Made by a program: the position numbers and the translations under genes
Notes under the pieces: generated by a model
Databases searched by the model: none
Seen by the model: only the letters and a program-made list of their open reading frames with translations
What the model was told of the DNA's origin: nothing
In this document: positions 3,547-29,437 of the stretch, piece after piece
How positions within the stretch are numbered: position 1 is the stretch's first letter
Layout: every line of letters starts with the position of its first letter
Assembly: GCA_029194665.1 (NCBI GenBank)
Contig: JARFXO010000004.1
Location: forward strand, 372,001-436,000
DNA from: Nitrospira sp.
Lineage (GTDB): Bacteria > Nitrospirota > Nitrospiria > Nitrospirales > Nitrospiraceae
DNA length: 64,000 nucleotides
Direction: 5' to 3'

Positions 3547-3552
3547 CGCATC

Positions 3553-4776: not shown

Positions 4777-4803
4777 AAAGCCTTCTCGCTGCTTCCTGAA
4801 GGC

Positions 4804-5592: not shown

Positions 5593-5638
5593 GATGCGTT
5601 TCCTTCCTCGTCCTATTCAGAGGCCGATCCGGCGACAT

Positions 5639-6862: not shown

Positions 6863-6939
6863 GTCGCACTCCTGTTCTCTGTCATCCCAACATCATGACG
6901 GATTCCATTCGTTCGGGTGATGCTTGACGCGTAGAAAGT

Positions 6940-8130: not shown

Positions 8131-9857
8131 GAGTCACCTACGCCCACTGCTTGATGTTGAACGGTTTCCACATCGTTCGCTCGGACCGCCTGATCGCGCA
8201 ACGTCCGCCGCAGCACCTTGCCGATGACCGTTCGCGGCAGATCCTGACGGAATTCCACGGTCGACGGGATCTTGTATCGCGCCAGCAGTCCGGCGCAGTG
8301 CGTGATCAATGTCCGTTCGGTGACGAACGATCCAGGTTTCGCCACGACGTAGGCCTTGATGGCCTCCCCGTACTCGTGGTCCGCAACCCCAACCACTGCG
8401 GCTTCATTCACCGCGGGGTGTTGACGCAAGACTTCTTCGACCTCCTGCGGATACACCGTTTCTCCCCGCGACTTAATGATGTCCTTCTTACGATCGACAA
8501 AATAGAAATACCCGCGATCATCCCGCCGGACGAGGTCGCCGGTGTGCAGCCATTCGTCTCGCAGTACGGCGCCGGTTTCGTCTGCCTTGTTCCAGTATCC
8601 CAGCATTACCTGCGGTCCTCGCACGATCAATTCACCTGTTTCGCCATCCGGCACATCCTCCAGTCCAGTGGCCGGGTCCACCACTCGCGCCTCGGTATCG
8701 GGAAAGGGGAGTCCCATCGAACCCGGCGGGTGTTCCCCATGTATCGGGTTACAGTGGGTCGCGGGACTGGCTTCCGTCAGCCCATAGCCCTCTGAGATTC
8801 TTGCTCCGGTGAGGTTTTCGAACCGCTTCTGCACATCGGCAGGAAGCGAACTGGCCCCGCTTAGACACACCCGCAATGAGCGTAAGTCATAGCGCTTCGC
8901 ATCCGGATGTTCAGTGATCATCGAATACATCATGGGTACGCCGGAAAACATGGTAATGCGATGGGTATGGATCGCCTTGATGACCTCATCTGGTTGGAAC
9001 CGAGGGAGAAGGACCACCGCACTTCCTGTCGCGATGGCCAGGTTCTGACAGGTGGTCTGACCGTAGGAGTGAAAAAATGGAATGGCACCCAGAAAGATTT
9101 CGTGACCCTCACGAAAGTTTGGAGACCAGTATCGGCCCTGAAGCGTATTCACGACCACATTACGGTGCGTGAGCATCGCGCCTTTGGCTGTTCCAGTCGT
9201 CCCACCGGTATATTGCAATTGCGCGAGATCGGTCGGGCGTACGAGAGGCAGACCGGCGGTACGATCCGCAGCGTTGACAGAGTTGGTGCGTAGGAGTTCG
9301 AGAAAACCATAGACAGGTGGAACTTTCTCGATGGGAACCCAACGTTTGGCTAACCGAGCCTTGATGGGATAGAGGAGTTTCTTGAAGAAGGGGAGATAGT
9401 CCAGAACGCTGGCCACGATGATCCGCTTCAGGAGTGTCGTCGCGTCCTGCACCGCTCGAACGCGAGGATAGAGTAGGTCGAGGACCACCATCGTCTCCGT
9501 TCCTGCATCGGCCAGTTGCGTCTGAATCTCTCGTTCAACGTAGAGCGGATTAGTCGGTACGACAACGGCGCCGGCTTTCAAGATTCCGTAATAGGCGACG
9601 ACCGTCTGGGGAATATTGGGAAGCATGAGAGCGACGCGATCGCCGGGACTGACGCCGAGTTGCCGCAGCGCGAGTGCAAATTGAGTCGTGAGGTCATCCA
9701 GTTTTCCATAAGAGATGCATGTGCCGTAAAACAGAAGAGCAGGGGAGTTTGCAAAACGATCCGATGAGTGTCTCAGGAGATCCGGAATAGTCCAGGCTGG
9801 ATAGGTGATGGTTGAGGGCACCCCGGGATCATATTGGCTGATCCAATTCTGTTTCAT
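8127..9857 (-). CDS. fadD: Long-chain fatty acid-CoA ligase
   Basis: 576 residues of the ANL superfamily. The P-loop-like AMP motif [18 protein letters not shown] lies near residue 215, [16 protein letters not shown] near 358, the hinge/ribose motif [15 protein letters not shown] and [30 protein letters not shown] near 440, and the C-terminal catalytic Lys region [15 protein letters not shown] near 553. It activates fatty acids to acyl-CoA via acyl-AMP. Position in a complete beta-oxidation operon favours medium or long fatty acids. Start ATG 9857 follows GGTAGGG. Confidence 0.9.
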
Positions 9858-11509: not shown

Positions 11510-11538
11510 CCGGGCGATCCACTTGGTGGGAGCCGGCC

Positions 11539-13634: not shown

Positions 13635-13636
13635 AA

Positions 13637-14410: not shown

Positions 14411-15409
14411 ATGGATGTTGCCGCCATCGCCAAAGAGATCAAGCGAGATGATATGCTCCAGATGTACCACTACCTCAGGCTCACCCGAGCGCTTGAGGAC
14501 AGGGTCACAGCACTCTACAGACAGGGACGTATCGTTGGAGGAGTCTATACCAGTCATGGAATGGAAGCGATCGCCGTCGGGTATGCTTCCGCCTTGGAAA
14601 GAGATGATGTCATCGCTCCCTACCATCGGGACATGGGGGCCTTCCTCATTCGAGGCTTCACGACCGGCGAGATTCTCGCCCAGTATCTTGGGAAGAGGAC
14701 CGGGCCGACCAAAGGGAAAGACGGGAATGTGCATATGGGAGATCTCAGGCGAGGAGTCTTCGGGTTTGTCAGTCATTTGGCGGACAACCTGCCGGTGGCA
14801 GCCGGTGCAGCTCTGGCATTCAAGATGAGAGGCGAATCTCGCGTAGTCTTTACGGGAACCGGTGATGGAGGATCCAGCAGGGGCGATTTTCACGAGGCGA
14901 TGAATTTTGCGGCGGTGCGGAAACTCCCCGTCGTCTTTTTCTGTACCAACAACCAATATGCGTACTCGACGCCGCTTCGTCTGCAGATGGCGATTCCGAA
15001 CGTCGTGGATCGATCCAAGGCCTATGGCATGCCCGGTGAGATTGTGGACGGTAACGACGTGGCGGCGGTCTATCTGGCGGCAAAACGGGCGATTGCAATC
15101 GCCCGCGAGGGGAAAGGGCCGACCTTTCTCGAGTTCAAGACGATGCGGATGCACGGCCATTCCGAACATGATCCGGCCAAATACGTGCCGCGTGAACTGT
15201 TGGAGGACTGGAAGCAGAAAGACCCGATCCTGAAAGCCGAGAGGCTGCTCAAAGAACTCGGCTATGGCGAGGAATCGTATTTCCAAAGAGTAGCCGAGCA
15301 AGTAAAGAGCGAAGTCGAGGCCGGTGTGGAATTTGCGGAACAGAGTCCTCTGCCGGAAGGACCGGAAATGTTGGAAGGCGTGTTCGCGGACGGAGCTGAC
15401 AGCTATTAG
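14411..15409 (+). CDS. 2-oxoacid dehydrogenase E1 alpha subunit (probably branched-chain)
   Basis: 332 residues. Thiamine-diphosphate motif GTGDGGSSRGDFHEAMNFAA and LPVVFFCTNNQYAYSTP (residues about 153-190); YHRDMGAFLIRGF and GKDGNVHMGDL earlier; the loop MRMHGHSEHDPAKYVP near 247 is the usual phosphorylation-loop region of E1 alpha. GGAGG lies seven bases before ATG 14411. With the adjacent E1 beta and E2 it forms the decarboxylating part of a dehydrogenase complex. The leucine and mutase genes downstream favour branched-chain 2-oxo acids over pyruvate or acetoin, but sequence alone does not settle this. No E3 gene is present. Confidence 0.85.
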   Translation: MDVAAIAKEIKRDDMLQMYHYLRLTRALEDRVTALYRQGRIVGGVYTSHGMEAIAVGYASALERDDVIAPYHRDMGAFLIRGFTTGEILAQYLGKRTGPTKGKDGNVHMGDLRRGVFGFVSHLADNLPVAAGAALAFKMRGESRVVFTGTGDGGSSRGDFHEAMNFAAVRKLPVVFFCTNNQYAYSTPLRLQMAIPNVVDRSKAYGMPGEIVDGNDVAAVYLAAKRAIAIAREGKGPTFLEFKTMRMHGHSEHDPAKYVPRELLEDWKQKDPILKAERLLKELGYGEESYFQRVAEQVKSEVEAGVEFAEQSPLPEGPEMLEGVFADGADSY

Positions 15410-15440
15410 TTGTTGGCTTTCGGTCCAGAAGGAGCCTCAT

Positions 15441-16436
15441 ATGGTGACCACGGCTCGAGCTACCGAGGAAGTCAGTTACTTGGAAGCGATTTCACAGGCC
15501 TTGGATGAGGAAATGGCCAGAGATGAGCGGGTGTTTTTGATGGGGGAAGATATCGGCACATACGGGGGTGCCTTCAAGATCACCGAAGGGTTTCTCCAAA
15601 AATACGGTGAGTGGCGCGTGTTGGATACTCCGCTTGCCGAGTCCGGTTTTGTCGGCGCGGCCATTGGTGCGGCCATGATGGGTCTGCGTCCGGTGGTGGA
15701 GATGCAGTTTGCGGACTTCATTTCCTGCGCTTTCGACCAGATCACCGAAGTCGCGGCCAAGAATCATTATCGATGGGGAGCAGCGGTGCCTATGGTTATC
15801 CGCGCACCGTTCGGCGGAGGCGTGCATGGTGGGCCGTTCCATTCTGAATGTCCGGAAGGCTGGTTCTTCCATTCACCAGGCCTCAAGCTGGTCGCCCCAT
15901 CCACACCATACGACGCCAAAGGCCTCCTCAAGGCGGCGATTCGCGACCCCAACCCGGTGATCTACTTCGAACACAAATTTCTCTACCGCCGCATCAAGTC
16001 TGCCTTGCCCAACGAAGACTTTGTTGTGCCGATCGGAAAGGCCGATGTAAAACGGGTCGGGAACGATATCTCGATCATCACGTACGGAGCAATGGTGCAC
16101 CTGGCGCTCGATGCCGCTCAGGCATTGACGGAGGAGGGGATTGACCTGGAAGTGGTCGACTTGCGCACATTGATCCCGCTCGACAAGGAAACGATCTATT
16201 CGTCCGTACGCAAGACCAGCAAAGTCATTCTTCTGCATGAGGACAACAAGACCGGTGGTATCGGAGCCGAAATCGCAGCACTGTTGGCTGAAGACTGTTT
16301 CGATTGCTTGGATGGGCCGATTGTGCGCATCGCGCCGCCGGACACGCCGGTGCCCTTCAGCCCGCCGTTGGAGGAGTTTTTCCTCCCGAAGACGAGCGAC
16401 ATCGTCTCAGCAGCGCGGAAGCTGGCGGCGTACTAA
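15441..16436 (+). CDS. 2-oxoacid dehydrogenase E1 beta subunit
   Basis: 331 residues from ATG 15441, with AGAAGGAG nine bases upstream; the longer open frame to the left overlaps E1 alpha and has no RBS. Seen: FLMGEDIGTYGGAFKITEGF, DTPLAESGFVGAAIGAAMMG, MQFADFISCAFDQITEVAAK and GGVHGGPFHSECPEGWFFHS (the conserved active-site His region), then VVDLRTLIPLDKETI in the C-terminal transketolase domain. Pairs with the preceding E1 alpha as an alpha2-beta2 E1 component that decarboxylates the 2-oxo acid and acylates the lipoyl group of E2. Confidence 0.9.
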   Translation: MVTTARATEEVSYLEAISQALDEEMARDERVFLMGEDIGTYGGAFKITEGFLQKYGEWRVLDTPLAESGFVGAAIGAAMMGLRPVVEMQFADFISCAFDQITEVAAKNHYRWGAAVPMVIRAPFGGGVHGGPFHSECPEGWFFHSPGLKLVAPSTPYDAKGLLKAAIRDPNPVIYFEHKFLYRRIKSALPNEDFVVPIGKADVKRVGNDISIITYGAMVHLALDAAQALTEEGIDLEVVDLRTLIPLDKETIYSSVRKTSKVILLHEDNKTGGIGAEIAALLAEDCFDCLDGPIVRIAPPDTPVPFSPPLEEFFLPKTSDIVSAARKLAAY

Positions 16437-16530: not shown

Positions 16531-17679
16531 ATGAGCATGGCTACCGAGATCATCATGCCGCAGCTTGGAGAGAGCATCGCCGAGGGAACGGTCGTGAAGT
16601 GGCTCGTTCCAATCGGAGGGACGATTCAGAAGGACGAGTCCCTCTTGGAAGTTGAAACTGAAAAGGTGACATTGGAAATTCCCTCGCCCGCCACAGGCTT
16701 GTTGAATGAGGTCGTCGTGCATGAGGGTGAGACGGTTCCTGTCGGAACCTTGCTGGCCAGAATCGAGAATGCTCCGCCCTCGGAAGTGATCAATCGGGTC
16801 GGCGGGGTGGTCGTCCGTCCCATGGGACCGACTCCAGGGGGCGAACAACATCATTCCCCGGCGGTCCGGCAGCTGGCGAAGGAGCGCGGCATCGATCTTT
16901 CACAGGTGAAGGGGACCGGGGTCGGTGGTCGGGTAACCAAGAAGGATGTGCTCGACTGTATCGCTCAGACCAGTTCTCAGGTCAAAGTTGCCGTTGCGGG
17001 CGACGAAGTTTCCGTGGGCGAAGAACTTCTCCCCTTCACGCAGATGCGCAAGACCATCGCCGATCGGATGGTCAAGAGCAAACAGACGTCAGCCCATGTC
17101 GCCACCTTTTTCGAGGCGGATTTTTCGCGCATCGTCAAATTCAGGGAAGGTCGAGACCTCACCTATCTTCCGTTTGTGATCCGTTCCGCGACAAGGGCCA
17201 TTCGCGAGGTCCCAGTCGTGAATTCGTCATGGAGTGAGCAAGGCATCGTGGTGAAGAAGGACATTCACGTGGGGATCGCCACGGCGCTCGATGACGGGCT
17301 CTTGGTGCCGGTTGTTCGGTATGCCGATCGAAAAGGACTGACGCAGCTGGCGAAAGAAATCAGTGATCTCGCCGAACGGGCCAGGTCCAAAAAACTGAAT
17401 CCTGAGGAGGTTCAGGGCGGGACGTTCACGATCACGAGCCATGGGGGGTTCGGCAGCCTGTTCAGCACCCCGATCATCCATCAGCCGCAAATCGCGATTT
17501 TGGGCATCGGCGCCATTCAGAAACGTGCCGTCGTCATTGACGATGCGATTGCCATTCGACCGACGGGCTACCTCAGCCTGTCCTTTGACCATCGGGTCAT
17601 CGACGGTGCAACGGCGGATCAATTCATGGCAAGAGTGAAACACTATCTCGAACAGAGTCATTGGGAGCAGATCTTGTGA
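16531..17679 (+). CDS. 2-oxoacid dehydrogenase E2 (dihydrolipoamide acyltransferase)
   Basis: 382 residues with the standard order: lipoyl domain (residues 1-80; lipoyl Lys in LLEVETEKVTLEIPSP), a short linker, E3/E1-binding domain (about 108-145, HHSPAVRQLAKERGIDLSQV ... GGRVTKKDVLD) and the catalytic domain, with SLSFDHRVIDGATADQFM near 350 containing the HxxxDG active site. Only one lipoyl domain, as in branched-chain and 2-oxoglutarate E2. Start could also be ATG 16537. It completes E1-E2; E3 must be supplied from elsewhere in the genome. Confidence 0.9.
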   Translation: MSMATEIIMPQLGESIAEGTVVKWLVPIGGTIQKDESLLEVETEKVTLEIPSPATGLLNEVVVHEGETVPVGTLLARIENAPPSEVINRVGGVVVRPMGPTPGGEQHHSPAVRQLAKERGIDLSQVKGTGVGGRVTKKDVLDCIAQTSSQVKVAVAGDEVSVGEELLPFTQMRKTIADRMVKSKQTSAHVATFFEADFSRIVKFREGRDLTYLPFVIRSATRAIREVPVVNSSWSEQGIVVKKDIHVGIATALDDGLLVPVVRYADRKGLTQLAKEISDLAERARSKKLNPEEVQGGTFTITSHGGFGSLFSTPIIHQPQIAILGIGAIQKRAVVIDDAIAIRPTGYLSLSFDHRVIDGATADQFMARVKHYLEQSHWEQIL

Positions 17680-17784
17680 ACCGGACATCACGTGCAGGGA
17701 TCGTCAGCGCCCTGTTGAGGTCGATGGGGGGTAATGGCCGGTTCAACCGGTCGGGGTAACGAGCGAAGGTGGTGGTTTCTTACT

Positions 17785-18681
17785 ATGAAACTCGACGACA
17801 TCACGATGATCGGCATTGTAGGAGCCGGCCAGATGGGTCGCGGCATCAGCCAGGTCTGTGCCACCGCCGGCTACGAAGTCTTGCTCGTGGATGTCGCCGA
17901 GCCCCCGTTAGCAGAGGCCATTTCCAAGATGCGTGTCGGATTGGAACGTGCAGTTGCACGAGGCAGCCTCACAGACCGTCGAGTAGGGGAGGTGCTGGCA
18001 CTCATTCACCCATCGGTGAAGCTCGACCGCTTGCGGGACGTTCAGTTGGTCATCGAGGCGATTCCGGAAGATCTCACACTGAAGCGAGACCTCTTCGCCC
18101 AATTGAATCGAGTCTGCGTACCGCAGACAGTGTTCGCGACCAATACCTCATCCATTGCGATCACGAAGTTAGGAGCCGCCTCCGGCCGGCCGGACCGTGT
18201 TGTGGGTTTGCATTTTATGAATCCCGCACCGGTGATGAGACTCGTGGAAGTTGTTCGGGGACTGGGAACAACCGAACCAACGACGCAACTTGTGCTCGAC
18301 TTGGCCAAGCGCTTAGGGAAAACACCGGTCTTGGCCAAAGATGTACCGGGATCCATCGTGAACCGCATCCTGATTCCCATGATCAATGAGGCAATTTTTG
18401 CGCTGGAGGAAGGCGTTGCATCTGTCGAGGATATTGATCTGGCGATGACGCTGGGGGCCAATCATCCCGTGGGGCCGCTAGCGCTGGCGGACCGCATCGG
18501 GTTGGATACAGTGTTGGCCATCTGCGATGTCTTGTTTCATGATCTGGGCGATCAAAAATTTCGACCTTGCCCGTTGCTTCGCCGGTATGTTGAAGCAGGA
18601 TGGCTTGGGAGGAAGAGCGGCCGCGGGTTCTACGTCTATGAAGAGAGGAACGAACAGCAGGCAGCCATAAGCAGGTCATGA
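17785..18681 (+). CDS. 3-hydroxybutyryl-CoA dehydrogenase
   Basis: 298 residues, the length of a single-domain short-chain enzyme, unlike the double-domain one at 5639-6862. NAD site [17 protein letters not shown] near residue 10; [38 protein letters not shown]; and [18 protein letters not shown] in the C-terminal helical domain. Prefers short chains such as 3-hydroxybutyryl-CoA. Its place beside a mutase of the isobutyryl-CoA type fits oxidation of butyryl-CoA made from isobutyryl-CoA. ATG 17785 chosen because the Rossmann fold begins just after it; the RBS is weak. Confidence 0.88.
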
Positions 18682-18721: not shown

Positions 18722-20317
18722 ATGCAAGAGCGTAAATCGAGATTCACCTCCCTCTCAGGATGCGACATCAACCGTCTGTATACCTATCACGATCTGAAGG
18801 ACTGGTCGCCCGAGGAGGAACTTGGAGCACCGGGCGAGTTTCCGTACACGCGAGGTGTGTATCCGACCATGTATCGCGGTCGGCTCTGGACAATGCGGCA
18901 ATTTGCTGGCTTCGGATCGGCGGAGGACACGAATCGTCGCTTCAAATATCTCCTCCAGCATGGGCAAACCGGCCTGAGCGTGGCGTTCGACATGCCGACG
19001 TTGATGGGAATCGACGCAGATGATCCTCGCGCTCACGGCGAGATCGGTCATTGCGGCGTCACGATCTCGTCGCTCGACGATATGGAGAGACTGTTCGACG
19101 GCATTCCGCTTGATCAAGTCACTACGTCGATGACGATCAACGGCCCGGCCGCCGTGATCTTTGCGATGTACCTCGCGGTCGCGGAGAAGCGCGGCATCGG
19201 TCTCGAGCGGCTGGACGGCACATTGCAGAACGATATTCTGAAAGAATACATCGCTCAGAAAGAGTGGCTCTTTCCGCCGGACCCTTCACTCCGCCTGATC
19301 ACCGACACCATGGCATACTGCGCCGACCATGTGCCCAAGTGGCATCCGGTCAGTATCAGCGGGTATCACATCCGGGAAGCCGGCTCGACTGCGGTGCAAG
19401 AACTGGCCTTTACCCTCTACGACGGCCTAACTTATGTGGACGCGGCGGTCAAAGCCGGTCTTCCGGTAGACCGGTTTGCTCCCCAGCTCTCGTTCTTTTT
19501 CAACGCCCACAACGACTTTTTTGAGGAAGTCGCCAAGTACCGTGCCGCCCGCCGACTGTGGGCTCGAGAAATGACGCGTCGGTATCGGCCCAGCGATCCC
19601 CGGTCGGCGCAGCTCCGGTGCCACGCGCAGACGGCCGGCTGTTCACTCACAGCGCAACAGCCCATGAACAACGTGGTCCGGACGACGATTCAGGCCCTCG
19701 CGGCCGTCATGGGCGGTACACAGTCCCTCCATACCAATTCGATGGACGAAACGCTCGCGCTGCCGACCGAAGACTCGGTGAAACTCGCGCTGCGCACCCA
19801 GCAAATCATCGCGCAGGAGAGCGAGGTCACCAATACTGTCGATCCTCTCGGCGGCTCCTATTATGTCGAGACTCTTACTAATCGACTCGAAGAGGCGGCG
19901 CTGGATTACTTTCGTCGGTTGGACGAGATGGGCGGCATGGTCAGGGCCATCGAGCGGGGCTTCCCTCAGCGTGAAATTCTCGATGCCGCGCAACGGTACC
20001 TACGTGAGGTGGAACGGAAGGAGCGAATCATCGTGGGGGTCAACGAGTACATGGAACCGGACGCACGCCAGATCTCGATCCTCAAGATCGGACAGGAAGT
20101 CGAGAATGAACAGGTGGCGCGTCTTTCGGATCTGCGGAAGTCTCGCGACTCGTTCAGAATGGTCGGCGCCGTCGAGGCACTGCAGGAAGCGGCCACGTGT
20201 GGGGAGAATGTGATGCCGTATCTCATCGAGGCGGTGAAGGCCAAGGCGACGTTAGGTGAAATTTGCCTGGCTTTGAAAGAAGTGTTGGGCATGTATCGTG
20301 ATCCGGTGGTGTTGTAG
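18722..20317 (+). CDS. icmA: B12 acyl-CoA mutase large subunit, isobutyryl-CoA mutase type
   Basis: 531-residue TIM-barrel catalytic subunit without a B12-binding domain. It matches methylmalonyl-CoA mutase family motifs: [38 protein letters not shown] and [14 protein letters not shown]. The residues that set substrate in this family are Phe61 and Gln179, where methylmalonyl-CoA mutase has Tyr89 and Arg207. The spacing to each other (118) and to the conserved His216 (37) is identical to that enzyme, so the alignment has no gaps. Phe and Gln are the isobutyryl-CoA mutase pair (Phe80, Gln198 in Streptomyces). Automatic annotation would likely call it methylmalonyl-CoA mutase. It works with the small subunit at 21173-21580 to interconvert isobutyryl- and butyryl-CoA. 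Confidence 0.8.
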
Positions 20318-20336
20318 AAGGACCTCGGCTGAAGCT

Positions 20337-21176
20337 ATGAAACTCGGAGCGTTTGACATATATCCCGTGAGCGATGGTCGGTTTCGACTGGATGGAGGAG
20401 CGATGTTTGGTGTCGTGCCGAAAGTCTTGTGGGAGAAATGTTGTCCCACCGATGAGTCGAATCGAATCTCACTCAGCCTAACAGCTCTCCTAATCAGAGC
20501 GAACGGCAAGAACATTCTGGTTGATACGGGGCTGGGGCCTAAGGAAGACGAGAAGTTTCACCGTCTGTTCGCCGTCGAGCGAACGCCGACGATCCTTGAA
20601 TCCTTGAAGAGACTAGGCCTAGGACCGGAGGACATCCATCTGGTGATCAACACGCATCTGCATTTCGACCATGCCGGCGGGAACACGGTGCAAGAGAACG
20701 GATCCGTTGTGCCCACCTTTCCCAACGCCAAATACTTCATTCAACTTGGTGAGTTTGAAGATGCGGCTCGCGCCAATGAACGGACCAAGGCCAGCTACCG
20801 CCGCGATAACTTTACACCGATCGCTCACGTGAACCAGTGGGAATTCTTGCACGGGGATACTGAATTACTGCCCGGTATCACCGCCATGGTGACCGCCGGC
20901 CATACGCGCTGTCATCAGAGCGTCAAGATCGAATCGGAAGGGCGGATTGCATTTTTTCTGGGAGACCTGATTCCGACCGTATCGCATCTGCCGCTTCCCT
21001 ACATCATGGGCTACGATCTCTTCCCCATCCAGACACTGGAGACGAAACGGTGGGTATTGGATCGGGCGTTTGAAGAGCAATGGCTGCTGCTCTTCGAGCA
21101 TGATCCACTGGTTCAGGCTGGGCATGTCAGGAAGGATCAGGAAGGCAAGTATTTTCTTCGGGAGGTGGCGATATGA
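20337..21176 (+). CDS. Metallo-beta-lactamase fold hydrolase
   Basis: 279 residues from ATG 20337. The zinc motif [12 protein letters not shown] (HxHxDH) lies near residue 108, the next His in [10 protein letters not shown] near 188, Asp in FFLGDLIPT near 210, and the last His in LFEHDPL near 254, so a dinuclear site is intact. The layout resembles lactonases and glyoxalase-II-like hydrolases (NILVDTGLG). It is inserted between the large and small mutase subunits and overlaps the latter by ATGA, so it belongs to the operon. Hydrolysis of a thioester or lactone intermediate is a guess; the substrate is unknown. Confidence 0.8.
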
Positions 21177-21580
21177 CAGTAGCGAGCCAGCCTCTTCGGA
21201 TTTTGATAGGCAAAGTTGGCCTCGACGGCCATGACCGGGGTGTAAAGCTCATCGCGCGAGCATTACGAGACGCTGGAATGGAGGTCATCTATACCGGGTT
21301 GCATCAGACGCCGGAGCAGATCGTTAATAGCGCGATCCAAGAGGATGTGGATGCGATCGGGTTGAGCATTCTTTCAGGAGCGCACAGGACGCTGTTCCGT
21401 CGCGTCCTCGAACTGCTCAAAGAACAGGATGCTGAGGACATCGCCTTGTTCGGCGGCGGCATCATCCCCGATGAGGATGTGCCCACGCTCACGGCGGCCG
21501 GCGTGAGGGCTCTGTTTAGGCCGGGAGCACCCATGGAGGAGATCGTGACGTTTGTGAAAGGGCTCAAACCACAGGGCTGA
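21173..21580 (+). CDS. icmB: B12-binding small subunit of the acyl-CoA mutase
   Basis: 135 residues, a free-standing cobalamin-binding domain. [16 protein letters not shown] carries the DxHxxG motif (Asp18, His20) whose His replaces dimethylbenzimidazole as lower ligand of B12; later motifs [13 protein letters not shown] and [11 protein letters not shown] contact the nucleotide tail. The size equals the small subunits of isobutyryl-CoA and 2-hydroxyisobutyryl-CoA mutases (about 136 residues), while methylmalonyl-CoA mutases usually carry this domain fused. Pairs with the subunit at 18722-20317 despite the hydrolase gene between them. Confidence 0.9.
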
Positions 21581-21586
21581 GGAACC

Positions 21587-23191
21587 ATGCGTACGTTGAC
21601 AACTTCAGTCGTTGCCACCTCCGGCGAATTCGCGTCGAATCGTGCGCACTATGAAGGGCTGGTGGCTGACCTTCAAAAGCACCTCGCGCTCGCTCGAGCC
21701 GGGGGATCTCCGGAGGCTATCGCGCTTCATCAACAACGAGGCAAACTGACCGCTCGTGAGCGGATTGCGAAGTTGCTCGATCCGGATGCGCCTTGGCTCG
21801 AACTCAGTCCCTTGGCGGCATCCGGGATGTACGACGACCAGGTCGCAGCTGCCGGTCTGATTACAGGAATCGGTTACGTGTCGGGACGGCCCTGTGTCAT
21901 CGCCGCCAACGATGCGACGGTCAAGGGCGGGACCTACTTCCCCATGACGATCAAGAAACATCTCAGGGCTCAAGAGATCGCCTTGGACAATCGGCTGCCC
22001 GCGATTTACCTGGTGGATTCCGGCGGTGTGTTCCTGCCGATGCAAGCCGATGTCTTCGCCGACAAGGAGCACTTCGGACGGCTCTTTTATAACCAGGCGC
22101 GCATGTCCGCTCTCGGAATTCCTCAAATTGCCGTCGTCATGGGGATGTGCACGGCAGGCGGTGCCTATGTGCCGGCCATGTGTGATGAAAACGTGATCGT
22201 CAAAGGGACCGGCACCATTTATCTGGCAGGACCCCCGCTGGTCAAAGCGGCAACCGGCGAGGAGGTCACCGCCGAAGACCTTGGCGGGGCAGATCTCCAT
22301 ACCAGGTTTTCTGGTGTGAGCGATCACCTCGCAGACGATGACCAAGAGGCGCTCGCGATCTGCCGGTCGATCGTCGAGACCTTGCCTCGACGGCCGGTCC
22401 TTCGCAGACCAGCTCCGATCGAAGAGCCGCATTACTCGGCTTCTGAATTGTACGGATTGATTCCGAACAATCCACGTCAGACTTTCGACGCCGGTGAAGT
22501 CATTGCCCGCTTGGTGGACGGCAGCTGCTTTCATGAGTTTAAGGCCCGTTACGGCAGGACGCTTCTCTGTGGCTTTGCCCGTTGGATGGGACATCAAGTC
22601 GGCATCGTCGCGAATAACGGCGTGTTGTTCTCCGAAGCTGCACTGAAAGGCACGCACTTTGTGCAACTCTGCGCCCAGCGACGACTACCGCTCGTATTTC
22701 TGCAAAACATTACCGGATTCATGGTTGGGAAGGAGTATGAGGCGCGCGGAATCATTAAGGACGGCGCCAAGCTGGTGCAAGCGGTGGCGACCGCCGAGGT
22801 TCCGAAGTTCACCATTATTATCGGCGCCTCTCATGGCGCTGGTAACTATGCCATGTGCGGGCGCGCCTACGATCCGCGCTTTCTCTTTCTCTGGCCCAAT
22901 GCCCGGACTTCAGTGATGGGGGCGCAACAGGCGGCCCAGGTACTCTTGACGGTGAAACAGCAGCAGCGAGCCCACGACAACGGGTCCCTGTCGGAAGACG
23001 AGCGGCGAAAGATCACGGATTCTATACGAGCCCAGTATGATCGGGAGTGCAGTCCCTATTTCAGCACCGCTCGTCTCTGGGATGATGGGATCATCGATCC
23101 AGTGGATACAAGGAAAATTCTCGGTCTGTGTCTGGACGTTGCGATGACGACGCCGGTCCGCCCGTCGCACTTCCCCGTTTTTCGCATGTGA
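21587..23191 (+). CDS. Acyl-CoA carboxylase carboxyltransferase subunit (methylcrotonyl-CoA type)
   Basis: 534 residues with two crotonase-like halves. The stretch [20 protein letters not shown] followed by [19 protein letters not shown] and [17 protein letters not shown] is the pattern of methylcrotonyl-CoA carboxylase beta subunits rather than propionyl-CoA carboxylase. The C-terminal half has [20 protein letters not shown] and [20 protein letters not shown]. It transfers CO2 from carboxybiotin to 3-methylcrotonyl-CoA in leucine breakdown. The biotin carboxylase/BCCP alpha subunit, normally next door, is not in this window. Neighbouring hydratase and HMG-CoA lyase support the leucine role; geranyl-CoA carboxylase is a close alternative. 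Confidence 0.87.
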
Positions 23192-23198
23192 GGCCCGG

Positions 23199-23999
23199 AT
23201 GAATCATCCTACGTCGATCCTCGTTGATTTGTACGAAGGCGGTGCAAGGGTGACCTTGAATCGACCCGATCGACGAAACGCGTTCGATGCCCGCATGGTG
23301 GCCGAGATCTGCGAGACCTTCGAAACATTGGGACAAGACCATTCGGTGCATGCAATCGTCCTAACCGGTAGTGGTCCGACGTTTTGTGCAGGTGCAGACC
23401 TCGCCTGGATGGGGACGGACCGAATCGTGTCCGCACCAGAAGCGCAGCAGGACGCCGATCGATTGCTCACCATGTTCCGGACCGTCGATGATTGCCCCTG
23501 TCCGGTGATCGGATGCATTCAGGGAGCTGCCTATGGCGGAGGAATCGGGTTACTTGCGGCGTGCGACATCACTGTGGCTGCTGCGACTGCGACCTTCGCG
23601 TTCAGCGAGGTTCGTCTGGGATTGGTCCCGGCCGTCATCGCCCCTTTCGTTCTTGCGAAGACCGGGGACTCGTTCGTGCGACGATTCTGTTTGACCGGCG
23701 AGTCGTTTTCCGCACGGACCGCTCAAGCAGCTGGGCTGATTCATGATGTGGTTGAGTCGGCTGCGCTTGACGCCCATGTCGCATCATTGGTTGAACAGAT
23801 CGCCCGTCTCGCTCCGCAGGCCGTACGGGACACGAAAGCGCTGTTTCACCGGCTTCACCATCTGTCCCATGAGGAGCGCTGGAAGACTTGTGTCGAAGGG
23901 AACGTTCGGGCTCGCCGCTCATCTGAAGCGCGGGAAGGGCTTCGCGCCTTTCGTGAACGGCGACCACCGGACTGGGTTGCATCAACAGGTGGAGAGTAA
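23199..23999 (+). CDS. Enoyl-CoA hydratase, probably methylglutaconyl-CoA hydratase
   Basis: 266-residue crotonase-fold protein. TFCAGADLAWMG carries the ADLxWM word typical of 3-methylglutaconyl-CoA hydratases. GAAYGGGIGLLAACD has Gly where ordinary hydratases have the first catalytic Glu, again as in that subgroup, and FSEVRLGLVPAVI keeps the second Glu. It starts seven bases after the carboxyltransferase stop and precedes HMG-CoA lyase, which is the enzyme order of the leucine pathway. It would make HMG-CoA from 3-methylglutaconyl-CoA. Confidence 0.85.
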   Translation: MNHPTSILVDLYEGGARVTLNRPDRRNAFDARMVAEICETFETLGQDHSVHAIVLTGSGPTFCAGADLAWMGTDRIVSAPEAQQDADRLLTMFRTVDDCPCPVIGCIQGAAYGGGIGLLAACDITVAAATATFAFSEVRLGLVPAVIAPFVLAKTGDSFVRRFCLTGESFSARTAQAAGLIHDVVESAALDAHVASLVEQIARLAPQAVRDTKALFHRLHHLSHEERWKTCVEGNVRARRSSEAREGLRAFRERRPPDWVASTGGE

Positions 24000-24022
24000 A
24001 AGGTGTTGCTGTGGAATGGCGC

Positions 24023-24970
24023 ATGATGGCCGACAGCAACGGACCAAAACAGAGTTCGTCTGTGATCCGGATCGTCGAGGTTGGTCCTCGAGACGGGTTG
24101 CAGAATGAATCAGAGGTCGTTCCCACGGCAATCAAGGTGGCGTTTGTAGATGCTCTGTCCAAGAGCGGTGTGACGGAGATCGAAGCGGGATCGTTTGTGT
24201 CGTCTCGTGCCATTCCGCAACTGGCGGATTCCGATGAGGTGTTCCGAAGGATTGAGCGGCGGCCCGGCGTCATCTACTCAGCGCTGGTGCCGAACGAACG
24301 AGGATTGGAACGGGCCAGGGCAGCGGGCATGAACAAGATCGCCGTCTTTACGGCGGCCTCCGACACGTTCACCCGGCAGAACATCAACTGTACAATTGAC
24401 GAGTCGATCGAGCGGTTCAGGCCGGTGGTGTACGGCGCGAAACGTGACGGCATGGTCGTCCGGGGGTACATCTCTACCGTGACCCATTGCCCCTTCGAGG
24501 GTGCCGTCCAGCCGTTGCAAGTTCTGGACGTGGTGCGGCAGTTGCTTGATCTTGGAGTCGACGAAGCCTCCCTCGGGGACACCGTTGGAAAAGCAGCTCC
24601 TCGCGACATCCGGAGGCTGCTGGATGAAATAGTGCCCCGCATTGACCGAAGTCGTCTGTCCCTTCACTTTCATGATACCTGCGGCATGGCTGTGGCCAAT
24701 GTCCTGACCGCATGGACCGAGTACGGCATTGAGGCGTTCGACACGGCTGCCGGAGGACTGGGAGGCTGTCCGTACGCTCCAGGAGCGTCGGGGAACGTTT
24801 CAACGGAAGACGTGGTCTATGCGCTAAGGGCATCCGGCGCTTCGCTTGCTGTGGATGAGCGGAAGGTCATTGCGGCGGCAAGCGAAATCGGTAAGGTTCT
24901 GAACCGCCGACTCTCGTCGCGCCTATCGCAGGTACAGACAGAACGAACTACGTATGAGGGTGCGGCATGA
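24023..24970 (+). CDS. Hydroxymethylglutaryl-CoA lyase
   Basis: 315 residues in the DRE-TIM metallolyase family. IRIVEVGPRDGLQNESEVV near residue 15 gives the catalytic Arg and Asp; GVTEIEAGSFVSSRAIPQL; LHFHDTCGMAVANVL gives the metal-binding HxH; and GLGGCPYAPGASGNVSTEDVVY holds the flexible active-site Cys loop. It cleaves HMG-CoA to acetoacetate and acetyl-CoA, ending leucine degradation. Start may be either of two adjacent ATGs (24023 or 24026). The stop overlaps the next gene by ATGA. Confidence 0.92.
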   Translation: MMADSNGPKQSSSVIRIVEVGPRDGLQNESEVVPTAIKVAFVDALSKSGVTEIEAGSFVSSRAIPQLADSDEVFRRIERRPGVIYSALVPNERGLERARAAGMNKIAVFTAASDTFTRQNINCTIDESIERFRPVVYGAKRDGMVVRGYISTVTHCPFEGAVQPLQVLDVVRQLLDLGVDEASLGDTVGKAAPRDIRRLLDEIVPRIDRSRLSLHFHDTCGMAVANVLTAWTEYGIEAFDTAAGGLGGCPYAPGASGNVSTEDVVYALRASGASLAVDERKVIAAASEIGKVLNRRLSSRLSQVQTERTTYEGAA

Positions 24971-25752
24971 GCCCTGCTGGACCGCACCTGTTCATGCGCG
25001 ACATCGAAGGCATGGCGACCTTAGCCGAACAGGTCAGACGCGGTAATATCCGTGCCGTTTCACGGCTGATCACCCTATTGGAGAACCATCGGGACAACAG
25101 ACAAGCGCTACATCTCCTCAACGGCACCTCGCGCGGGGCGACGGTCATTGGAGTTACGGGATATCCAGGAGCTGGGAAGAGCACAGTGGTCAACCGCTTA
25201 GTGAGCTGCTATCGACGGCAAGGTTTAAAGGTGGGAGTTTTGGCGGTCGATATCAGTAGCCCTATCACAGGCGGTGCCCTGTTGGGTGACCGCATCAGAA
25301 TGCAGGAACACGCGCTGGATCATGGGGTGTACATCAGAAGCATGGCCACTCGCGGACATCATGGAGGGCTTGCCCAAGCGACTGCCGATGCAGCGCTGGT
25401 ATTGGAAACAGCTGGATTTGAGGTGATTCTGATTGAGACTGTCGGGGTTGGCCAGAATGAAATCGACATCGTCGATCTCGCGCCCATCGTTGTGGCCGTG
25501 GTAGCGCCGGGCCTGGGCGACGAGGTTCAAGCGATGAAGGCTGGATTATTGGAAGTTGCACACATCGTCGTCGTCAACAAAGGAGACCTTCCCGGTGCGG
25601 ATAACACGTTACGAGATCTGCGGGAATGGTGCCCCAATGTGTTACGCACGGTCGCGACGACAGGCGAGGGGATTTCGGAGCTTGCTGCCGCAATCCTGGT
25701 GCATCGACCATCCAGCGATATGAGCTCCGTCGGTGAAGTCCGAAATCGCTGA
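24967..25752 (+). CDS. MeaB/ArgK-type G-protein chaperone of the B12 mutase
   Basis: 261 residues. Walker A GVTGYPGAGKSTVVNRL near residue 62, AVDISSPITGGALLGDRIRM (normally AVDPSSP), LIETVGVGQNEIDIVDLA (switch and Walker B) and VVNKGD for guanine recognition. Such GTPases load and protect adenosylcobalamin in acyl-CoA mutases, so it serves the split mutase of this operon. Usual MeaB proteins have about 310-340 residues; this one ends soon after the G domain and seems to lack part of the C-terminal dimerisation helices. Overlaps HMG-CoA lyase by ATGA. Confidence 0.88.
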   Translation: MSPAGPHLFMRDIEGMATLAEQVRRGNIRAVSRLITLLENHRDNRQALHLLNGTSRGATVIGVTGYPGAGKSTVVNRLVSCYRRQGLKVGVLAVDISSPITGGALLGDRIRMQEHALDHGVYIRSMATRGHHGGLAQATADAALVLETAGFEVILIETVGVGQNEIDIVDLAPIVVAVVAPGLGDEVQAMKAGLLEVAHIVVVNKGDLPGADNTLRDLREWCPNVLRTVATTGEGISELAAAILVHRPSSDMSSVGEVRNR

Positions 25753-25901: not shown

Positions 25902-27344
25902 ATGCTCGCGGATCGCTTCGCTCGATATGGCAGGTCTTTGCGCTACCGTGATTTGCCGGACGCTGTTGTGCACGAAGTCAAACGGCGCCTGCTCGACAGC
26001 CTTGGCTGCGCGCTTGGGGCGTGGAACGCACCGCCATGTCGGATCGCCCGCCTGATTGCCCAGGTCGCCAAGGTGCCTCAGGGGGCCACCCTGTGGGGCA
26101 CAAGTCACAAGACCCTACCCGATCTTGCGGCCTTCGCCAACGGCGGGCTGGTCCGGTATCTGGATTTCAACGATACCTATCTTTCGAAAGAGCCGGGGCA
26201 CCCTTCCGATAATATTCCAGCCATTCTTTCGGTCGGCGAGGCAATGCATGCGTCTGGTACACGTACCATCGAAGCCGTCGTGCTCGCCTATGAAATCCAT
26301 TGCCGTCTCTGTGACGCTTCGGCGCTACGTCCCCGCGGCTGGGACCATGTGACGTACGGCCCATTTTCTTCTGCCCTCGGTGCCGCCAAGCTCATGAAAC
26401 TTTCCAACAAACAGACGGTCCAGGCAATCAATCTGGCCGGCATTGCAAATGTGGCTCTTCGGCAGACGCGGGTCGGGGATCTGTCCATGTGGAAGGCCTG
26501 CGCCTTCTCGAATGCCGCCCGAAACGGTGTGTTCGCCGCCATGCTGGCGCAGGCTGGTATGACAGGACCGTCGCCTATCTTCGAAGGAGAAAAGGGCTTC
26601 ATGAAGCTGGTTTCAGGACCACTGGAGCTGGCGTCATTCACTGCAGAACGGGGACATTCCCAGATGGGGGTGGAGTCTAGCGGAAAGGGGTCTGTCTCCG
26701 CGAGCCAGTATCCTCAGTTCAAGATTCTCGATACCTATATCAAACATTACCCAGTCGAATATCACGCGCAGACTGCGGTCGAAGCAGCGTTGGCACTTCG
26801 CGATGAAGTGACGGAAGCAGAAGGAGTTCGTGCGATCGATCATGTAAAAGATGTTGAGATCGGTAGTTATGACGTGGCCATCGAAATTATCGGGCGTGAT
26901 CCTGAAAAATGGCAGCCGGCCACGAGGGAGACGGCTGACCACAGCTTCCCCTATTGCGTGGCAGCGGCATTGCTCCACGGTCCTGTGACGTTGCAGTCAT
27001 TCGATCCGAAACGATTGCGCGATCCGGCTGTGCGGAATTTGATGAAGCAGGTCCGTGTTGTGCAGCAGCCGGAATTCGTGGGACGGTATCCGAGGACCAT
27101 GCCGACCAGAATCACGGTCAAGACAGAAGCAGGGAAAACCTACATGAGTCAAGTCGATGTACCGGTAGGACATCCAAGCAATCCGATGTCGGATCGGGAT
27201 CTGGAAGCAAAGTTTCGCCGGTTGGCCGTCGGACGGTTGAATCGCTCTCGCATCGACCGGCTAATCGAATTCGTGTGGAACCTTGATCGGGTCAGAGACA
27301 TCAGTACGCTCATGCCGATGCTGAACGTGAAAGGCGGAGGTTGA
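25902..27344 (+). CDS. prpD: 2-methylcitrate dehydratase (MmgE/PrpD family)
   Basis: 480 residues, full length for the family. Seen: RRLLDSLGCALGAW near residue 28, LVRYLDFNDTYLSKEPGHPSDNIP near 82 (conserved FNDT and HPSDN), YEIHCRLCDA, WDHVTYGPFSSALGAAKLM and KHYPVEYHAQTAVEAAL near 282. It dehydrates 2-methylcitrate toward 2-methyl-cis-aconitate. It stops by overlap with the PrpB-PrpC frame, and AGAGG precedes ATG 25902. With the fused lyase and synthase it makes up the methylcitrate cycle for propionyl-CoA. Confidence 0.9.
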   Translation: MLADRFARYGRSLRYRDLPDAVVHEVKRRLLDSLGCALGAWNAPPCRIARLIAQVAKVPQGATLWGTSHKTLPDLAAFANGGLVRYLDFNDTYLSKEPGHPSDNIPAILSVGEAMHASGTRTIEAVVLAYEIHCRLCDASALRPRGWDHVTYGPFSSALGAAKLMKLSNKQTVQAINLAGIANVALRQTRVGDLSMWKACAFSNAARNGVFAAMLAQAGMTGPSPIFEGEKGFMKLVSGPLELASFTAERGHSQMGVESSGKGSVSASQYPQFKILDTYIKHYPVEYHAQTAVEAALALRDEVTEAEGVRAIDHVKDVEIGSYDVAIEIIGRDPEKWQPATRETADHSFPYCVAAALLHGPVTLQSFDPKRLRDPAVRNLMKQVRVVQQPEFVGRYPRTMPTRITVKTEAGKTYMSQVDVPVGHPSNPMSDRDLEAKFRRLAVGRLNRSRIDRLIEFVWNLDRVRDISTLMPMLNVKGGG

Positions 27345-27373
27345 GTGTAAGGTTTAGGAGAATCCCGACGACG

Positions 27374-29437
27374 ATGGTGGAGCGAAAGCGGTCGCCGAAG
27401 ACATCTCGCCTGCGCGAATTGTTGGCTACACGTACCCTCGCCATTCCCGGAGCGTTTAATGCGTTGGTCGCGATGCAAATCGAACGAGCCGGCTACGAGA
27501 TCGCGTATGTCTCAGGCGCTGCCATATCTGCTTGCCGTGGAATGCCGGACATCGGCCTGTTGACGCTGAGTGATATGGCGTCGGAGGCGGGAAGGATCGC
27601 CCGCTCGGTCTCGATTCCGACCATTGTCGATGCGGACACAGGATATGGCGGTACGCTATCCATCGCGGAGGCGGTGTGGGCTTTCGAGGAGAGTGAGCTC
27701 GCCGGCATGCAGATCGAAGATCAAGAAACGGCCAAGAAGTGCGGCCATCTTTCTGGGAAAAGTTTGGTGCCTGTAGAAGAAATGACAGCCAAAATCAAGG
27801 CGGCAGTCCATGCCAAACGAGATCCAGATTTCATGATTATTGCGCGCACTGATGCCCGCAGCGTGGAGGGACTTGAGGCGGCAGTTCAACGTGCCGCGGC
27901 TTACGCGGAAGCTGGGGCGGATGCGTTATTTCCCGAGGCTCTGGAATCGGCCGTAGAATTCCGAACGTTTGTTCGCGAATTGACGGAGAGAGGAATCACT
28001 GTTCCACTGATCGCCAATATGACGGAGTTCGGGAAAACGCCGCTATTGAGCGTTGCAGAATTTGAGAGGCTAGGGTATCGCGGCGTGCTCTTTCCTGTTA
28101 CGGGGTTACGAACGGCTTTGCAAGCGGTCGAGAGGCTATTGGCCGAGCTGAAGCTGTTTGGGTCTCAGAAGGACTGGCTCCATCGCATGATGACAAGACG
28201 AGAACTGTACAGTCTGCTCCGGTATACCGATGCCGGTGAGCATCGGGAAGGGGGACGTATGAGCATCGCAATGAAGGGGTCTCTCGTGGATGAGGTGAAA
28301 GGTCGTCCTGCTTATAGCCCCGGTCTTGAAGGCGTGATCGCCGGGGAATCGGCTCTCTGCCTTGTCGACGAAGGGGAAGCCGGTCTCCTCTATCGCGGTT
28401 ACCCGATCCGTGATTTAGCGGAGGATGGCACATTTGAGGAAGTCGCCTATTTGCTGCTGTTCGGTCATCTGCCGAATCGGCTGGAGTTAGCAGACTTCTC
28501 AGCGCAACTCATCCATCACGCTGTCCTTCCTCATTTCCTCGAAGTGTTCCTTGGTGCAGTGCCTTCCGGCTCACATCCGATGGATATGGTCCGAACGGGC
28601 GTTTCCCTGCTGGGCATGGTCGATCCGGACGCAGCCGACAACTCGCACGAGGCGAACGTTCGGAAATCGGTCCGGCTGTTGGCACAGATCCCACTGATGA
28701 TTGCGACCTCCTATCGGTTCGTGAGCGGCAAACCTCTGGTGCGACCGCAAGGGGATCTGACCTTTGCGGAGAATCTCTTGTACCTCCTCACTGACCGGCG
28801 GGGAAGCGATGAAGCGAAAGCCATGGCTCACGTTCTCGACGTCTCCCTCACACTGTACGCCGAACATGAATTCAATGCGTCCACGTTTGCCGCCCGGGTG
28901 ACTGCGTCGACAATGACGGATCTGCATTCGGCCGTTACTTCGGCGATCGGAACGCTCAAGGGACCGCTCCATGGCGGGGCCAACGAGGCGGTGGCCGAGA
29001 TGTTTCTCGGTATCGGCAGCCGTGAACAGGCGGAAGCATGGGTACGGGAGGCGCTCCGACAGAAACAGCGGATCATGGGTTTCGGTCACCGCGTGCTCAA
29101 GAAGGGAGACAGCCGTTCAGCCATCATTCAACGGCACGCTGAATCGTTGAGCTGGATCTGCGGAGACCGCCGATGGTACGAGATTGCGACCGCCGTCGAT
29201 CAGGTCATGGAACAGGAAAAAGGTCTCCGTCCCAACCTGGATTTCTACACCGCGGTCGCCTATCTTTTGATGGAGATCCCCCGCACGCTGTATACGCCGG
29301 TGTTCATCTGTTCCCGCATCACCGGATGGTGCGCCCATGTCATTGAACAACAGGATCGCAATCGGTTGATGAGGCCCCGGGCTCTCTATACGGGGCCGCC
29401 GAAGAGGGAATATGTCCCCCTTGATCGTCGTACCTGA
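27374..29437 (+). CDS. prpBC: Fused methylisocitrate lyase and 2-methylcitrate synthase
   Basis: One uninterrupted frame of 687 residues from ATG 27374 (the TTG at 27341 is a weaker choice). Residues about 10-285 are a PEP-mutase/isocitrate-lyase-fold lyase: VDADTGYGGTLSIAEAV, IEDQETAKKCGHLSGK with the catalytic Cys, and ending RRELYSLLRYTDAG as PrpB does. Residues 296-687 are a complete citrate-synthase-family enzyme with GPLHGGANEAV, GFGHRVLKKGDSR and RPNLDFYTAVAY carrying the His, His, Asp triad. The linker is only about ten residues. A GGGAAGGGGGACGT sequence ahead of ATG 28259 could also start a separate PrpC. Known relatives are usually two genes; a natural fusion or a sequencing indel must be told apart. 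Confidence 0.85.
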   Translation: MVERKRSPKTSRLRELLATRTLAIPGAFNALVAMQIERAGYEIAYVSGAAISACRGMPDIGLLTLSDMASEAGRIARSVSIPTIVDADTGYGGTLSIAEAVWAFEESELAGMQIEDQETAKKCGHLSGKSLVPVEEMTAKIKAAVHAKRDPDFMIIARTDARSVEGLEAAVQRAAAYAEAGADALFPEALESAVEFRTFVRELTERGITVPLIANMTEFGKTPLLSVAEFERLGYRGVLFPVTGLRTALQAVERLLAELKLFGSQKDWLHRMMTRRELYSLLRYTDAGEHREGGRMSIAMKGSLVDEVKGRPAYSPGLEGVIAGESALCLVDEGEAGLLYRGYPIRDLAEDGTFEEVAYLLLFGHLPNRLELADFSAQLIHHAVLPHFLEVFLGAVPSGSHPMDMVRTGVSLLGMVDPDAADNSHEANVRKSVRLLAQIPLMIATSYRFVSGKPLVRPQGDLTFAENLLYLLTDRRGSDEAKAMAHVLDVSLTLYAEHEFNASTFAARVTASTMTDLHSAVTSAIGTLKGPLHGGANEAVAEMFLGIGSREQAEAWVREALRQKQRIMGFGHRVLKKGDSRSAIIQRHAESLSWICGDRRWYEIATAVDQVMEQEKGLRPNLDFYTAVAYLLMEIPRTLYTPVFICSRITGWCAHVIEQQDRNRLMRPRALYTGPPKREYVPLDRRT

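Follow-up and report, generated by a model that had tools for sequence, protein, structure and literature searches.

A split adenosylcobalamin-dependent mutase in a branched-chain amino acid operon of Nitrospira is predicted to be an isobutyryl-CoA mutase

Among nitrite oxidisers, the genus Nitrospira is one of the commonest. The isobutyryl-CoA mutase (ICM) of Streptomyces has a separate small B12 subunit. Nitrospira papers speak of methylmalonyl-CoA mutase (MCM): a passage of PMC8115632 traces the B12 need of N. marina to three B12-dependent enzymes, MCM being one of them, an entry in PMC12542776 lists the Nitrospira culture NS4 with mcmA1A2, and a soil comammox study (PMC11865330) takes mutA as the sign of B12 dependence in its genomes. 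These entries are likened to the enzyme described here by published name. A butyrate-degrading Syntrophomonas is credited, in a section of PMC6687939, with putative isobutyryl-CoA mutase genes, and the kind of enzyme is therefore already known; in the open-access papers searched we found no paper joining Nitrospira with isobutyryl-CoA mutase, and none joining Nitrospira with methylcitrate and valine. Here we describe a split mutase encoded in a stretch of 64,000 nucleotides (the window) from a 4.8 Mb genome of Nitrospira sp. (assembly GCA_029194665.1, contig JARFXO010000004.1, positions 372,001 to 436,000). Judged from its sequence and surroundings, it is most likely an isobutyryl-CoA mutase, an enzyme of a known kind in a new setting.

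The two subunit genes are as follows.

18722..20317, + strand: acyl-CoA mutase large subunit, 531 residues, with Phe61, Ala88, Gln179 and His216 (TIGR00641, 760 bits; alignments; trees)
21173..21580, + strand: mutase small B12-binding subunit with a DGHDRG motif (TIGR00640, 153 bits, cut-off 57)

We propose, with a probability of about 0.82, that together they form an adenosylcobalamin-dependent isobutyryl-CoA mutase in a route that takes valine to butyryl-CoA and on to beta-oxidation. The proposal draws directly on the active-site residues, the tree placement, a conserved gene order and the finding of no rival route above curated cut-offs.

The residues of the substrate pocket were compared in HMMER alignments to the 2-hydroxyisobutyryl-CoA mutase (HCM) structure 4r3u, human MCM and M. 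tuberculosis MutB, and in a MAFFT alignment. Phe61 lies opposite Ile in HCM and Tyr in MCM, Ala88 aligns with Asp in HCM and Ala in MCM, Gln179 aligns with Gln in HCM and Arg in MCM, and His216 is the conserved His. The window enzyme thus reads F/A/Q/H at the four positions, where methylmalonyl-CoA mutases have Tyr/Ala/Arg/His and 2-hydroxyisobutyryl-CoA mutases Ile/Asp/Gln/His. Phe61 and His216 are spaced by 155 residues, as are Tyr89 and His244 of MCM (numbered from the Y89F and H244A mutants in PDB titles), and the spacing of Gln179 and His216, counted directly, is 37; for the Arg site we take 207 to be the number in the reference enzyme. The two-site rule of Tyr89 and Arg207 reportedly comes from Jost et al. 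in 2015, and we take Phe and Gln at these sites to be the mark of isobutyryl-CoA mutase, which agrees with the F/A/Q/H found in 17/17 Streptomyces-IcmA-like proteins. Tyr and Arg are given as the mark of MCM in a passage of PMC7238569 that cites Jost et al. (2015). On this comparison the large subunit has the Phe and Gln of ICM and lacks both the Tyr and Arg of MCM and the Ile and Asp of HCM; the free small subunit, whose DGHDRG is an instance of DxHxxG, is of the B12-binding kind that belongs to ICM. At the HCM-specific site, where the window has Ala88, Asp is found in L037 and L169, which we take to be HCM (4r3u being the solved example), and in L035 and L036.

An earlier reading of the DNA, made from the sequence alone, had claimed the loss of the MCM Tyr and Arg, a spacing equal to that of the reference enzyme and an Ala that speaks against the HCM type, and these claims were borne out by the alignments. 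The structural comparison it called for was less decisive. The residues align as it had said, but the fold cannot separate ICM, HCM and MCM, because the predicted model matches 4r3u_B with Z 52.0 (1.6 Å over 525 residues) and the best MCM chains with Z of about 51. Percent identity was tried as a classifier and rejected: split mutases with Tyr and Arg (Y/R) mostly share 54–61% with the window protein, IcmA-like proteins 52–54% and HCM 48–49%, so that identity alone would mislead, most split Y/R mutases being as close as, or closer than, the IcmA-like and HCM proteins. NCBIfam models give no substrate name for the mutase. The sequence-only reading had expected a routine pipeline to mislabel it; this holds in so far as the large subunit passes a generic ‘methylmalonyl-CoA mutase N-terminal domain’ model, but not for NF006944, the NCBI methylmalonyl-CoA mutase equivalog, which it misses with 638 against 876 bits, a score lowered by the split because this 721-position model takes in the B12 domain.

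Trees were built from an alignment of 161 rows after six columns around the specificity sites had been taken out. A quick tree held 69 hand-chosen rows and a careful tree 75, the additions being L248 and five IcmA-like rows from large Actinomycetota genomes, found with a query that we take to be Streptomyces IcmA and named accordingly; the MutA-type beta chains L041_1, L043_1 and L210_1 were dropped, as was L042, presumably ethylmalonyl-CoA-mutase-like. In both trees the window protein stands among rows with Phe and Gln (F/Q), HCM rows and rows with Val and Asp (V/D). In the careful tree this group has 45 rows (36 F/Q, 5 IcmA-like, 2 HCM and 2 V/D), with a bootstrap of 92 and a Shimodaira–Hasegawa-like approximate likelihood ratio (SH-aLRT) of 91. 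The best of three full-search trees puts all F/Q, HCM and V/D rows together, the free tree being 7.6 log units lower, and a tree forcing Nitrospira to join the Y/R rows falls 74.8 log units below the best and was rejected by the approximately unbiased (AU) test (p=0.003, three trees compared). An earlier AU test on the quick tree (p=0.456) is uninformative because the free search there overlooked a tree that was better by 40.7 log units. The grouping with MCM that had been named beforehand as speaking against the ICM assignment was thus not found; the window protein goes with the IcmA-like and HCM rows. The V/D rows L035 (4001–5593) and L036 (6001–7593), Val/Asp/Gln mutases from Sinorhizobium/Shinella plasmids, form a sister group to HCM.

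The F/Q form is widespread. A genome_contigs scan confirmed at least 594 stretches, of which the best 80 were kept; F/A/Q/H is present in 80/80 of these loci, across many phyla, with Phe in one search pattern and Ala in the other, and hence both partly by construction, and Gln in neither. The closest among these best 80 are a Nitrospirae metagenome-assembled genome (85%), Nitrospira sp. UBC2 (80%) and Nitrospira defluvii NOB1 (79%). A search of Nitrospirota gave matches at E<=1e-50 in 87 of 395 genomes; the best 30 loci, window genome included, are all F/A/Q/H, and four loci at 56–58% identity (L139, L140, L141 and L143) are Y/A/R/H, 4/4 checked. In the genome of L141 (G060), which belongs to the window's family, the Tyr/Arg form is the one match at E<=1e-50. 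Over the 161 aligned rows, window included, the states are F/A/Q/H in 99, Y/A/R/H in 54, I/D/Q/H in 2, V/D/Q/H in 2 and others in 4.

The second copies in these genomes provide a control. Two or more mutase matches occur in 43 of the 49 genomes behind the F/Q loci (109 matches in total), leaving 60 further copies when the best one per genome is set aside, and all 40 that were fetched, from 39 genomes, are Y/A/R/H. Because the F/Q form is kept beside an ordinary Y/R form, simple drift of a methylmalonyl-CoA mutase does not explain it. The window genome has one mutase of the family, of F/Q type, and no second.

The other parts of the operon, and a cluster on the opposite strand, are these.

14411..15409, + strand: 2-oxoacid dehydrogenase E1 alpha, probably branched-chain by context (PF00676, 2.7e-76)
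15435..16436, + strand: 2-oxoacid dehydrogenase E1 beta (NF006667, 361 bits, cut-off 321)
16531..17679, + strand: 2-oxoacid dehydrogenase E2 (NCBIfam models, all below cut-off, and PDB matches to E2 acyltransferases)
17785..18681, + strand: 3-hydroxybutyryl-CoA dehydrogenase (HBDH), expected to act late in butyryl-CoA oxidation (slightly below cut-off: NF004474, 387 bits, cut-off 408; NF005715, 378 bits, cut-off 420)
20337..21176, + strand: metallo-beta-lactamase-fold hydrolase, YtnP-like (PF00753; YtnP model 217 bits, cut-off 425)
21587..23191, + strand: acyl-CoA carboxyltransferase of methylcrotonyl-CoA carboxylase beta (MCC beta) type (PDB matches)
23199..23999, + strand: enoyl-CoA hydratase family, probably methylglutaconyl-CoA hydratase by context (NCBIfam crotonase models, all below cut-off)
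24011..24970, + strand: hydroxymethylglutaryl-CoA lyase (HMGL; NF004283, 401 bits, cut-off 246)
24967..25752, + strand: MeaB-type GTPase chaperone, C-terminally short (TIGR00750, 267 bits, cut-off 241; tail comparison)
25902..27344, + strand: 2-methylcitrate dehydratase, PrpD-like (NF042438, 211 bits, cut-off 950)
27341..29437, + strand: PrpB-PrpC single open reading frame (ORF), methylisocitrate lyase and 2-methylcitrate synthase (TIGR02317, 358 bits, cut-off 354; TIGR01800, 459 bits, cut-off 421)
1603..9857, - strand: fatty-acid beta-oxidation cluster of acyl-CoA dehydrogenase, patatin-like, enoyl-CoA hydratase, 3-hydroxyacyl-CoA dehydrogenase, thiolase and acyl-CoA ligase genes (NCBIfam and Pfam)

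The free B12 subunit, MeaB-like GTPase and hydroxyacyl-CoA dehydrogenase that the sequence-only reading had placed in the operon are all present by model matches, and so are the PrpD-like and PrpB-PrpC genes of the methylcitrate route that it had assigned to propionyl-CoA. PDB matches alone were rejected as a guide to the type of the 2-oxoacid dehydrogenase: for E1 alpha the best is 1um9, a 2-oxo acid dehydrogenase (199 bits), with pyruvate dehydrogenase at 165 and branched-chain 2-oxoacid dehydrogenase at 153, and the sequences of E1 alpha and E2 leave the type unsettled. The carboxyltransferase matches PDB chains of the methylcrotonyl-CoA carboxylase/AccD1 kind at 585–720 bits and a first classical propionyl-CoA carboxylase beta chain at 275.

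These parts suggest how the route would run. The operon opens with the genes of a 2-oxoacid dehydrogenase, whose branched-chain specificity we infer and which would convert the valine keto acid to isobutyryl-CoA. The mutase, serviced by the MeaB-type GTPase, would shift the thioester group between adjacent carbons by the radical 1,2-shift that characterised ICM enzymes carry out, giving n-butyryl-CoA. This would be oxidised to crotonyl-CoA and hydrated, and the adjacent HBDH would probably oxidise the hydrated product for cleavage by a thiolase into two acetyl-CoA. Leucine would be handled by the methylcrotonyl-CoA carboxylase-type and HMGL genes of the operon, and propionyl-CoA derived from isoleucine by the methylcitrate genes.

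Gene neighbourhoods were counted within 8 kb of the mutase, loci with less than 8 kb of total flank being left out (127/160 rows counted); since the loci share descent, the P values should be read as rough indications. Methylmalonyl-CoA epimerase adjoins 21/46 Y/R mutases and 2/57 F/Q mutases outside Nitrospirota (Fisher 3e-7), and the PccB/MmdA carboxyltransferase 19/46 and 5/57 (Fisher 1e-4); neither adjoins any of the 19 Nitrospirota F/Q mutases. Acyl-CoA dehydrogenase shows the opposite distribution, with 3/46 Y/R and 19/57 other F/Q (Fisher 0.0013), and 2/19 in Nitrospirota F/Q. Thiolase and HBDH each adjoin 1/46 Y/R and 7/57 other F/Q mutases (Fisher 0.07 for each), and in Nitrospirota F/Q 18/19 and 19/19 respectively. 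The genes for leucine breakdown are likewise found with F/Q mutases: MCC beta at 0/46 Y/R, 8/57 other F/Q (Fisher 0.008) and 13/19 Nitrospirota F/Q, and HMGL at 0/46, 6/57 (Fisher 0.03) and 13/19.

In 12/19 Nitrospirota loci the full order is conserved, namely E1 alpha, E1 beta, E2, thiolase, HBDH, mutase large subunit, hydrolase, mutase small subunit, MCC beta, hydratase, HMGL and MeaB. Five Nitrospirota loci (L048, L133, L136, L137 and L138) retain thiolase, HBDH and mutase but have no leucine genes at that place, and so set the mutase apart from leucine breakdown.

Several side observations concern the surroundings of the mutase. The YtnP-like hydrolase gene, on which the sequence-only reading was silent, sits between the two mutase subunit genes; it adjoins the mutase genes in 18/19 Nitrospirota loci, between the subunits where both are seen, and is also beside one Cloacimonadota mutase (L075). 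PrpB-PrpC is one ORF of 698 residues, with two separate matches in some relatives. Upstream of the operon, 10916–14389 holds glyoxalase-like, homogentisate-dioxygenase-like and fumarylacetoacetate-hydrolase-like genes and a gene without a Pfam match (13631–14389), in an order conserved in 14/20 Nitrospirota F/Q loci.

Rival routes for valine and propionyl-CoA were sought across the window genome. No methylmalonate-semialdehyde dehydrogenase (MMSDH) was found above cut-off (best 242 of 448.5 bits), no 3-hydroxyisobutyrate dehydrogenase (HIBADH; best 152 of 291.6 bits) and no methylmalonyl-CoA epimerase, for which the best score, 51 of 115 bits, belongs to the glyoxalase-like gene at 10916–11509. 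ECH_2, the family of 3-hydroxyisobutyryl-CoA hydrolase, matched in the genome only the two ordinary crotonases of this window. Three carboxyltransferases were matched, the MCC beta-type one of the operon and two short ones that are probably AccA/AccD-like. Of the three acyl-CoA dehydrogenases matched, two are long and one, of 384 residues, has ordinary length; this last scores 352 bits as butyryl-CoA, 351 as glutaryl-CoA, 346 as short-chain and 313 as isovaleryl-CoA dehydrogenase. With the rival routes not over cut-off, and methylcitrate and beta-oxidation genes at hand, one valine route is evident, and it would pass through the mutase. The predicted conversion of valine through isobutyryl-CoA to butyryl-CoA and beta-oxidation, put forward in the sequence-only reading, is in this way supported by gene context and by the rival pathways not found above cut-off.

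A number of points weigh against an isobutyryl-CoA mutase in a valine route. The missing rival enzymes rest on cut-offs, and absence above a curated cut-off does not prove absence: among 14 control genomes the MMSDH model passes in 5/14, the epimerase model in 8/14 and the HIBADH model in only 1/14, which makes the HIBADH result a weak test. The glyoxalase-like matches nearest the gene at 10916–11509 were not counted as epimerases (2/19 Nitrospirota loci). Outside Nitrospirota, thiolase and HBDH stand beside few F/Q mutases, as counted above. The window itself, together with its 94% relative L124, lacks the operon thiolase, the gap between E2 and HBDH being 17680–17784; another thiolase of the window lies at 6943–8130, in the 1603–9857 cluster. 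The top PDB match of the carboxyltransferase, 9tps (720 bits), bears the title propionyl-CoA carboxylase beta. In the careful tree the 92/91 support of the clade is only moderate, falling short of the starred level, with a bootstrap that had yet to converge. Two Bathyarchaeal rows from one genome are not cleanly sorted: the quick tree places L172 (Y/R) among F/Q rows, and the careful tree leaves L054 (F/Q) among the Y/R rows without a resolved position. Finally, leucine genes adjoin the mutase, which also suits isovaleryl-CoA as substrate.

This last point bears on the alternative that survives best, although we consider it unlikely: a mutase of isovaleryl-CoA and pivalyl-CoA, which would isomerise leucine-derived isovaleryl-CoA or feed pivalyl-CoA into the leucine genes. 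The genes for MCC beta, hydratase and HMGL come directly after those of the mutase and favour its F/Q form in the counts given above, the Acidobacteriota loci L055, L057, L071, L078 and L082 have MCC beta and neither thiolase nor HBDH, and fused IcmF works on both substrate pairs according to part of PMC10481361. However, leucine breakdown requires no mutase, the five Nitrospirota loci with thiolase, HBDH and mutase do without leucine genes (at the locus only), 0/19 Nitrospirota loci have leucine genes without HBDH, and Phe61 is present in all 80 loci, partly as an effect of the search pattern.

Two further alternatives have a very small probability each. One is a methylmalonyl-CoA mutase with unusual active-site residues, in line with the name used in parts of the Nitrospira papers PMC8115632 and PMC12542776 and with the 56–58% identity to split Y/R mutases such as that of Ilyobacter (L168), which lies beside epimerase and decarboxylase genes; but both Tyr and Arg are replaced, a Y/R grouping was rejected, epimerase and PccB/MmdA adjoin none of the Nitrospirota loci, no epimerase passes the cut-off in the genome, and the methylcitrate route exists for propionyl-CoA. 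The other is the same enzyme run backwards, from butyryl-CoA to isobutyryl-CoA, for branched starter units or valine carbon. The reaction of known ICM is reversible. A passage of PMC7238569 speaks of this direction, but the operon genes (2-oxoacid dehydrogenase, methylcrotonyl-CoA carboxylase type, HMGL and methylcitrate) are catabolic, and we expect isobutyryl-CoA to be the substrate consumed. Least probable of all is a 2-hydroxyisobutyryl-CoA mutase yielding (S)-3-hydroxybutyryl-CoA for the adjacent HBDH: such a dehydrogenase is also annotated near the HCM-type gene of Methylibium, at a distance of about 4 kb, and HCM 4r3u is the closest solved structure (552 bits, Z 52.0), but the HCM rows L037 and L169 have Ile and Asp where the window has Phe and Ala, and they branch with haloarchaeal F/Q and V/D proteins, apart from Nitrospira, in the careful tree.

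The chaperone of the operon departs from its relatives in one respect. Its tail was compared over 52 ORFs, drawn only from loci in which a MeaB ORF with a stop codon was found. After the last aligned position, 0–25 residues follow in 17/17 Nitrospirota F/Q loci, window included, and 53–89 in 35/35 other ORFs, five of them beside Nitrospirota Y/R mutases. The C-terminal extension of MeaB serves dimerisation, and switch III residues act across the dimer, according to a section of PMC9974510; the window MeaB retains Asp, Gln and Lys of switch III. As aligned, the operon MeaB is without the C-terminal dimerisation region in all 17 Nitrospirota F/Q loci, although these are close relatives and may reflect one loss. 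It is possible, if doubtful, that Nitrospirales handle valine through an isobutyryl-CoA mutase loaded by a MeaB without this region. Should that be so, the short MeaBs would need a different dimer or another gate for B12 loading, perhaps aided by the intersubunit hydrolase, because control by the MeaB GTPase is thought to act through switch III across the dimer.

If the Nitrospira enzyme is ICM, metabolic models would drop the methylmalonyl-CoA step and gain the oxidation of valine to butyryl-CoA, and amino-acid use would be tied to B12 supply. Since the Phe/Gln form is found in bacteria and archaea of many groups, whose genomes often hold a Tyr/Arg copy as well, many mutase entries with a generic name could be sorted by combining the two-site rule with gene context.

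Among described systems, the Nitrospira mutase resembles Streptomyces IcmA/IcmB in its F/A/Q/H residues and common tree group, and differs in sharing 52–54% identity with IcmA, in being encoded, together with MeaB, within an operon for branched-chain amino acids, and in having a metallo-hydrolase gene between its subunits. With HCM (4r3u; Methylibium, Xanthobacter) it has in common the Gln at the Arg207 site, split subunits, a nearby MeaB and the nearest PDB structure, whereas HCM has Ile and Asp in place of its Phe and Ala and is 48–49% identical. The split methylmalonyl-CoA mutases of Ilyobacter and other Nitrospirota are like it in subunit structure, MeaB and 56–58% identity, but have Tyr and Arg and often epimerase or carboxyltransferase neighbours. 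Fused IcmF has the same predicted reaction and the same fold (Z about 43); in Nitrospira, by contrast, B12 domain, GTPase and mutase are three separate ORFs, the identity is about 39%, and the IcmF model gives 387 of 1500 bits.

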